Virus record (IMG/VR): IMGVR_UViG_3300009194_000009
Location: 29,418-93,417 of that record
DNA: 64,000 bases
Reading direction: 5' to 3' (one strand)
Origin: a virus
Shown here: positions 54,882-57,178 of the stretch, piece by piece
How the letters are laid out: each line of letters begins with the position of its first letter
Position numbering within the stretch: position 1 is the first letter of the stretch
Notes under the pieces: model-generated
Seen by the model: only the letters and a program-made list of their open reading frames with translations
Told to the model about the DNA's origin: nothing
Databases searched by the model: none
Position numbers and translations under genes: made by a program

Positions 54882-57178
54882 TACGTATTTTCCTCTTCAT
54901 CCCCAAAGTCCATATCGATATCAAGATCCTCTTCGTTGTTGGCTTCTTCATCAGCCGCCAACTCTTCCTGTTCAAGCTCTTCAATGTCTTCGTCATTAGG
55001 CACGTTAATATCACCTTCAGATGCATTAGCTTTAGATAGAGCAACCTCGAACCCTTTTTCTTCTTTCCACAGACTTTCATTTTGCTTGATTTCAGCATCA
55101 CTAAGTCCCATGAATCTCTTCATGATAAAACGCTTAGACATATAAGGAACATCAGCAACACTTTGGAAGACGGCCATCTGAGCAGTATCCAATTCAATCT
55201 GACGATATTCACTAAAGCTTTGCGGTTCAATAAATTTAATATCAAAATCCCCTGAACTGATTTCCACTTCTTGATTTTTAACAAAAAGCTTAAATTCACG
55301 GTTCAGTGTCTTGATTACTTGCTTCTGAAGTCTTTCACAGTACTTTGAGAATTTAAATTCTTCCATATATGCAGTACCTGTTTTCCCATCGTTATACTGA
55401 TATGTTTCACCATTCTCAGTAAGATAGGACATGTATGCTATAGGAACTCTCAGACCACGAATCATACGAGATGTAAAGAACTTCAAGTCTTCAATACTAC
55501 CCGTTGAGTTTTTAGTAAACACCCCATTTCCAATAGGAAAGGTATGGTTATCTGTAAATCTTTCATAACCATCTATTGTCAGCGTACCAGTATCCATAGT
55601 TCCGATAGGTTCTTTCTTTGTGAGAGTTTTGTATTCCACCACATCGCCTTCGCGTTCTAACTGGTTTTGGTAATAATCTTTAAAGCGATACGGTTTGCCG
55701 AATTCCTCAAAGAATCCGTCAAACATTTCTTCAGTATTCATCCATTCGTCAGTGCGTTCAACATGATACATCAACTTGTTATTCTCAAACTTTTCATGTA
55801 ACACAAAAAACTCATCGCCGTCTTCTATATCCTCGGCCTTTACATATCCCTTCCCTTTTACTGGGAACTCATGATCAGGTGTACAAATAACACTTTCACC
55901 ATCACTGAAATGAAGTTTAATCACATCAGTATTTTCACGAGTAATACCCGCCCATGTGATCATAGCTGGACATATAACACCAGTGACTTTATCCACAGTG
56001 TAGGTCATTAACATCTCGCCATTCTCATAGCGTTTAATGATGTTCTTTAGGGTATCTGTCGTACCATCTATCAAACGTATATCAGTGCCTAAGGATAAAC
56101 ATTCACCCCCCGGTAAGACTTCTACTGATGAACCCCTGCCATCAGGGCCTTGGGCGAAAAAGAAATCTTCTGTAATGGACATGGGATTATACGTAGTGTC
56201 CATAATAGTTTCACCATTGTTGTAATCTACTACGGGTTGACGTTTTTGACGAAAAGTATCTGCTACTTGGTTAACGTACTCGTTTGCTTTTTTAGGCGAC
56301 ATACCACCCGTGTCAATTTTGAACATCAACCTCTCAGGAGAGCGCTGAACGCGGTAGATAATAATAGCGTCTTCTAACAACTCTTTTTGTTTAAAAGGTT
56401 TAAAGACTGAATCCAAAACACTACGACCGAATGGCCAAAGATTATCCATACCAGTTGACTTAGTAATATGTACAACATGACTAGAGGCCACAGGATATTC
56501 ACGATCCACATCATTATCAGATCCATGATTGTTAGTATATGATTCATTACCGAAGCCTGTGAAACTTTGTGAACTAGTCATGCGACTAGCCCTAACACCA
56601 CCTGCTAGTGGTATGTTCATCAATAACTTAGAATCGTCTGTCGCAACCAAGTTAGTGAGGTTCAGAGAAAGGTTTTTGATAAAATAATATTCAGGTTCTT
56701 TACCCTCTTCTTCATTCACCAACACCTTTGCAACATTATAGATGTCAGTCCAATATAGCTTAAATGTTTCTGGATCACGGATCATTATTTGATCACCATA
56801 CTTGATCACATTTCGGAATATATCGAAGAGTCTAGAAGAGAATTCATTAATTCGAACCCATCGTTTAAGTGATTCTCGCAATACAGCCACGTCAGAGTTA
56901 GATATCTCGTCACTAACCTGTAAATCAAATGGCATATCATCATATTCACTATTCAACGTACAGAATTCAGCTATTGTGTCTAGCGCTAGGTTGATATCTA
57001 CATCATAGTCCATATGATCGTACTGCATATAGCGAGCAATACGGTCATACGAGCCTTGATAAAATTGAGGCAACCATGATTTATTATTATTTAATTTTGA
57101 ACCATCGTTAATTCCCGTGGAATTATCTTGCTGTCTTGCTTTTATTTTTATAGTATTGTATCTACTTTTCCAACTCAT
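54881..57178 (-). CDS. gp20: Portal vertex protein, T4 gp20-like, with an in-frame intein
   Basis: 765 codons: an extein of 567 residues (T4 gp20 has 524) plus a 198-residue intein at residues 360-557. Extein hallmarks are SWLPQFYQGSYDRIARYMQYD near the start in short runs, the FRNVIKYGDQI segment, KSTGMDNLWPFGRSVLD and LPGGE at 355-359, continuing as S-T-G-S-I-E-D-L-K-F-F at 558. The dodecameric portal is the DNA entry vertex. The intein falls in a strongly conserved LPGG...I.D..YF motif, so unspliced protein is unlikely to work. The tail (730-765) is acidic. It is the first gene of an operon with the small basic protein, behind a one-mismatch late box (57208). Confidence 0.93.
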   Translation of the reverse strand: MSWKSRYNTIKIKARQQDNSTGINDGSKLNNNKSWLPQFYQGSYDRIARYMQYDHMDYDVDINLALDTIAEFCTLNSEYDDMPFDLQVSDEISNSDVAVLRESLKRWVRINEFSSRLFDIFRNVIKYGDQIMIRDPETFKLYWTDIYNVAKVLVNEEEGKEPEYYFIKNLSLNLTNLVATDDSKLLMNIPLAGGVRASRMTSSQSFTGFGNESYTNNHGSDNDVDREYPVASSHVVHITKSTGMDNLWPFGRSVLDSVFKPFKQKELLEDAIIIYRVQRSPERLMFKIDTGGMSPKKANEYVNQVADTFRQKRQPVVDYNNGETIMDTTYNPMSITEDFFFAQGPDGRGSSVEVLPGGECLSLGTDIRLIDGTTDTLKNIIKRYENGEMLMTYTVDKVTGVICPAMITWAGITRENTDVIKLHFSDGESVICTPDHEFPVKGKGYVKAEDIEDGDEFFVLHEKFENNKLMYHVERTDEWMNTEEMFDGFFEEFGKPYRFKDYYQNQLEREGDVVEYKTLTKKEPIGTMDTGTLTIDGYERFTDNHTFPIGNGVFTKNSTGSIEDLKFFTSRMIRGLRVPIAYMSYLTENGETYQYNDGKTGTAYMEEFKFSKYCERLQKQVIKTLNREFKLFVKNQEVEISSGDFDIKFIEPQSFSEYRQIELDTAQMAVFQSVADVPYMSKRFIMKRFMGLSDAEIKQNESLWKEEKGFEVALSKANASEGDINVPNDEDIEELEQEELAADEEANNEEDLDIDMDFGDEEENT
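55508..56101 (-). other. Mini-intein in the portal protein (residues 360-557)
   Basis: The insert begins with Cys360 (block A, CLSLGTDIRLIDG), contains block B (VICTPDHEFPV with the T-x-x-H pair, then KAEDIEDGDEF) and ends with block F/G (NHTFPIGNGVFTKN-S) at Asn557, followed by Ser558 as the +1 nucleophile. This is the Hint/intein order. There is no LAGLIDADG or HNH motif and only about 55 residues between splicing halves, so it is a mini-intein without homing endonuclease. The penultimate residue is Lys rather than the usual His, known to be tolerated in some inteins. Removing it restores an in-frame portal. Confidence 0.9.

Follow-up and report, generated by a model that had tools for sequence, protein, structure and literature searches.

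Known phage inteins lie mostly in replication and packaging enzymes. Genes fractured around split inteins have reportedly been described as well, by Dassa et al. in 2009. By host protein, the closest described systems are the portal (PORT) inteins of six cluster C1 mycobacteriophages (Kelley 2016, PMC5050341), and in some mycobacteriophage inteins Gly, Lys or Ser replaces the penultimate His (PMC5050341). The 64,000-nucleotide stretch of viral DNA analysed here, hereafter the window, comes from a T4-like jumbo phage and likewise has an intein in a phage portal gene, in this case of the gp20 type. In contrast to the fractured genes, this intein is in one piece, and next to it no separate endonuclease gene was recognised. 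No mycobacteriophage record was among the matches to the window's intein family, and the open-access literature searched gave no description of gp20 inteins, which is weak evidence. The portal as a class of intein host is not new. An earlier note on this DNA had called such a host unusual, a view that gives way both to the six C1 inteins already tabulated and to the finding that, judged from their sequences, gp20-type portals are a recurrent intein host in uncultured phages. What appears to be undescribed is the repeated, clustered colonisation of gp20 portals.

The features of the portal gene and its insert, with the genes downstream of it, are as follows.

54881-57178, minus strand: gp20-type portal precursor ORF, 765 residues (PF07230, phrog_213)
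56102-57178, minus strand: N-extein, portal residues 1-359, C-terminal end LPGGE
55508-56101, minus strand: intein, 198 residues (CLSLGTD...GVFTKN), portal residues 360-557; TIGR01445, Hint fold, empty sites in relatives
56099-56101, minus strand: codon of Cys1, the N-terminal nucleophile; invariant in 50 family members
55871-55882, minus strand: block B TPDH, T74 to H77; T74 and H77 invariant in the 50
55607-55795, minus strand: linker, intein residues 103-165, where relatives have an HNH endonuclease domain; holds a marginal remnant of the HNH flank; model confidence low in part
55544-55546, minus strand: His186 of block F; invariant in the 50
55508-55513, minus strand: penultimate Lys197 and terminal Asn198; Asn invariant in the 50
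55505-55507, minus strand: Ser+1, first C-extein residue, codon TCA; Ser+1 in 53 of 56 family members
54881-55507, minus strand: C-extein, portal residues 558-765 and stop, starting STGSIEDLKFF
53346-53993, minus strand: head maturation protease, downstream of the portal gene
51972-53327, minus strand: phrog_10922 protein, downstream of the portal gene
50761-51945, minus strand: major head protein, downstream of the portal gene

It is very probable that the insert as a whole is best explained as a class 1 intein, an allele of an HNH intein family of portals, that is excised post-translationally and has probably lost its HNH domain. The identity of the host is clear. The ORF matches Portal_T4 (PF07230) with an E-value of 3.7e-92, in two stretches, the insert interrupting the profile match, and the phrog_213 portal with an E-value of 1.6e-94. 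Both exteins match the T4 portal structures 3ja7 and 6uzc, so homology to gp20 lies on either side of the insert. The earlier note had named a T4-like gp20 portal as host and placed a 198-residue insert within it; both stand, the boundaries being exact and the predicted length of the portal after splicing being 567 residues. Intein and exteins do not differ in base composition. A chance ORF was rejected on shuffling, as all 2000 shuffled versions of the insert lost the open frame, and chance or an assembly artefact was rejected on an independent contig of 75-80% DNA identity, which has the insert at the identical codon.

Profile and fold both identify the insert as an intein. TIGR01445 (intein_Nterm) scored 31.9 bits over a cut-off of 24.5, while PF14890, at 23.8 bits, fell under its curated cut-off of 35.8. 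Of the sequences with a solved structure, that of the NrdJ-1 intein is nearest (E 2e-8). An AlphaFold model built on an alignment of 50 family sequences had a pLDDT of 87 and a pTM of 0.84, with a weak stretch around residues 136-151; a model from the window intein and its orthologue alone was poor (pLDDT 36.5) and was left unused. The best Foldseek match of the good model was again NrdJ-1 (E 1.6e-9), VIA-align superposed 142 residues on NrdJ-1 (8ubs) at 1.8 A with a Z of 21.5, and the structural matches listed were inteins and other Hint domains, the model being a Hint fold. Few residues are invariant in the 50-sequence alignment; C1, T74, H77, H186 and N198 belong to them. The window intein shares with NrdJ-1 the Hint fold, Cys1, the TxxH of block B, the terminal Asn and a nucleophile at +1, here Ser. 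It differs in being contiguous rather than split, in its host, a portal rather than a ribonucleotide reductase, in its penultimate Lys and in about 50 additional residues in the linker.

The features that define a class 1 intein (splicing domain, Cys1, TxxH, Asn198, Ser+1 and precise insertion) are present, and by every feature testable in sequence the insert is such an intein, from which splicing may be expected. The motifs that the earlier note had read from the letters were all recovered, as was its identification of an intein. Domain-profile searches of the insert found no endonuclease domain, again in agreement. The usual, though not obligatory, penultimate His is absent. The note was right that Lys197 takes its place, but this is no peculiarity of the window: of the 56 distinct family inteins described below, 31 have Lys and 4 have His at the penultimate position, so that Lys is the rule of the portal intein family.

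Relatives with an ordinary portal domain in the same stretch were looked for, as the earlier note had proposed along with a survey of empty sites, and what the relatives have are exact empty sites. The portal of Salicola phage SCTP-2, about 66% identical, reads SLPGGE/STGSIEDLKFF without interruption (a slash marks the insertion point), and that of IMG/VR locus L003 reads TLPGGE/STGNIEDLKFF, in neither case with a residue gained or lost. A simple motif search of 86 further portal loci (L021-L106) found a readable, uninterrupted site in 81, where the +1 residue is nearly always Asn, not Ser (PGGxNLG). The Ser+1 of the intein-free SCTP-2 and L003 suggests that the intein entered a lineage already with Ser, or was lost there. 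The two groups that carry an intein at LPGGE/S fall separately in the extein tree, where the window's clade includes empty relatives, a pattern that needs gain by transfer or repeated loss.

The nearest occupied relative, L002 (IMGVR_UViG_3300021979_000003), has an intein 83.8% identical to that of the window in protein and 74.6% in DNA. Between the two inteins dN is 0.11-0.12, with dS saturated at about 2 or more; for the exteins dN is 0.06-0.07, a tighter constraint. As far as these substitution rates go, the intein is under strong purifying selection, weaker than that on the exteins.

Viral contigs scanned with the intein as the only query gave no match, exact 8-mers being too strict. A DNA pattern combining the flank and the Cys was then used to find portal inteins at the same site, and returned four portal ORFs of 1246-1460 residues (L135, L139, L149 and L167), each with an intein at the identical LPGGE/S site and one or two further inteins just upstream. 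The LPGGE/S intein has 525 residues and an HNH domain in L135, 431 residues and an HNH domain in L149, 218 residues and a decayed HNH in L139 and L167, and 198 residues and no HNH in the window and L002. These lengths illustrate stages between a homing-type element and a mini-intein.

A scan with the family alignment showed that 410 viral contigs encode relatives of the window intein. The best 80, those nearest to it, all lie in gp20-type portal ORFs (80/80), a count that covers the nearest relatives and says nothing of the other 330. Together with the loci found by pattern they gave 100 delimited inteins, or 56 after clustering at 90%. These 56 occupy about seven sites, at T4 gp20 positions ~316, 317-318, 328, 337-341, 353 and 354 and one near 393 (LR756508), nearly all within ~316-354. 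Of the 56, 29 have a recognisable HNH motif, and 20 are at most 230 residues long and show none. Portal ORFs carry one family intein in 64 cases, two in 12 and three in 4, duplicate records included. The homologous inteins of L135, L139, L149, L167, L190-L268 and LR756508 thus lie, like the window's, in gp20-type portals, but most of the longer ones have an HNH domain and several of the portals hold two or three inteins, whereas the window carries a single intein that lacks HNH.

Among 50,697 phage records a portal intein of the family was found only in LR756508, which is uncultured and unannotated. In this 484-kb phage (LR756508.1, L004) the portal ORF, of 1387 residues from locus position 1027, appears to carry three inteins, at LPYGK/S, WKQL/T and LEGK/S, the third with an HNH domain. 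Weak intein matches also occurred in Bacillus phage SP-15, Streptococcus phage GXN1 and 735-kb records; none has a portal annotation at the match, which lies in a hypothetical gene in SP-15 and where no features are annotated in GXN1 and the 735-kb records.

From this distribution it is most likely that the intein of the window represents an allele, devoid of endonuclease, in an HNH intein family specialised for portals. In the intein tree, members from one site tend to group together, with 10 changes compared with 36 in shuffles; this would be expected of lineages that mostly keep to one site each and now and then move to a nearby one. The window and L002 form a pair on a long branch, and their grouping in a single clade with the other LPGGE/S inteins is no more than compatible with an AU test (p 0.488, no rejection). 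The linker and the HNH flank are collinear, and the remnant is marginal in sequence, scoring 7.8 bits in the window and 13.0 in L002 against a best of 10.4 in 300 shuffles. Searches of the window's contig and its sister contig for HNH_3 and GIY-YIG domains were negative, both records being fragments. The mini-intein of the window lineage would have arisen through loss of the HNH domain, a step for which the main evidence is the same-site relatives and the remnants that stand out clearly in further mini-inteins of the family. Vertical inheritance would have followed, with retention favoured because imprecise loss of the intein would destroy an essential portal.

The intein is predicted to excise itself after translation and to join the portal halves at LPGGE-STG, giving the 567-residue protein. 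In class 1 chemistry a thioester forms at Cys1, the chain is transferred to Ser+1 and Asn198 cyclises, and the same is expected here. The block F His may be able to stand in for the missing penultimate His, a substitution discussed in PMC5050341. The insertion site maps between D354 and N355 of T4 gp20, whose clip domain spans 279-358 (PMC4493910), which together place the insertion within the channel loop, the part that constricts the tunnel for the DNA. Twelve 22-kDa domains there would not fit a working channel, and an unspliced chain would presumably give no working dodecamer. Splicing would then have to precede or accompany ring assembly. On this structural mapping splicing should be obligatory for head function, and obligatory splicing would be enough to explain why the intein is retained.

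Other readings give splicing a further role or none. It is unlikely, though worth stating, that a lineage of inteins peculiar to gp20 portals has colonised adjacent sites within a single 40-residue stretch, and that some endonuclease-free copies were kept because splicing times portal assembly. Somewhat less likely still is a domesticated regulatory intein, whose conditional splicing (by redox, temperature or infection stage) would time portal production and head assembly. The long-term purifying selection without an endonuclease would fit such a role, as would a host protein that starts assembly and a non-His penultimate residue, since such residues can tune the splicing rate (PMC5050341). 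However, obligatory splicing of an essential protein predicts identical selection, the close relatives SCTP-2 and L003 manage without the intein, and the HNH-bearing relatives resemble ordinary homing parasites. That the splicing rate gates head assembly is speculation.

A splicing-dead or cleavage-only Hint relic is very improbable: the penultimate Lys might suggest one, but failed ligation would break an essential portal, the catalytic residues are invariant, with Ser+1 nearly so, and the intein is under purifying selection. An ordinary extra portal domain, for decoration or insertion, retained in the virion would explain why the ORF stays in frame across the insert, yet it is barely credible given the Hint fold with its full set of splicing motifs, the exact empty sites, the conserved splice-junction residues and a family whose members, often equipped with HNH domains, occupy about seven sites in portals.

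The recurrent host here is a structural protein that initiates assembly; nearly all the sites are packed into the segment of clip and channel loop, and a single gene holds up to three inteins. gp20 lends itself to the study of what makes inteins gather in functional loops, of the way in which an endonuclease acquires nearby targets, and of a possible limit set by splicing on capsid assembly. Portal inteins may also account for portal ORFs two to three times the usual length in some uncultured phages.

Several further portal ORFs differ in arrangement. Those of L200, L205, L244, L247 and similar loci, of 1500-1950 residues, also contain, upstream of their family inteins, further segments that resemble inteins but are more divergent. 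In L232, L261 and L263 the portal gene is in two ORFs around a family intein, which could reflect split inteins or frameshifts.

Arrangements that look like fractured genes occur in the same phage lineage, in a DNA polymerase (PolB) and a UvsW-like helicase. On the window's own contig (G000), at about 16361-21039 and upstream of the window (L011, L007), a family B DNA polymerase has two inteins at its YGDTDS motif. The first is broken by a stop and a free-standing ORF of 295 residues with a weak PF18741 nuclease match, and resembles a fractured gene with a split intein. On the contig of L002 (G001), at 72719-73651 and around (L006, L010), the UvsW-like helicase has inteins at GFGK/T and DE/CH, the latter interrupted by a free-standing ORF of 318 residues with a NUMOD3 and a TnsA-like endonuclease domain.
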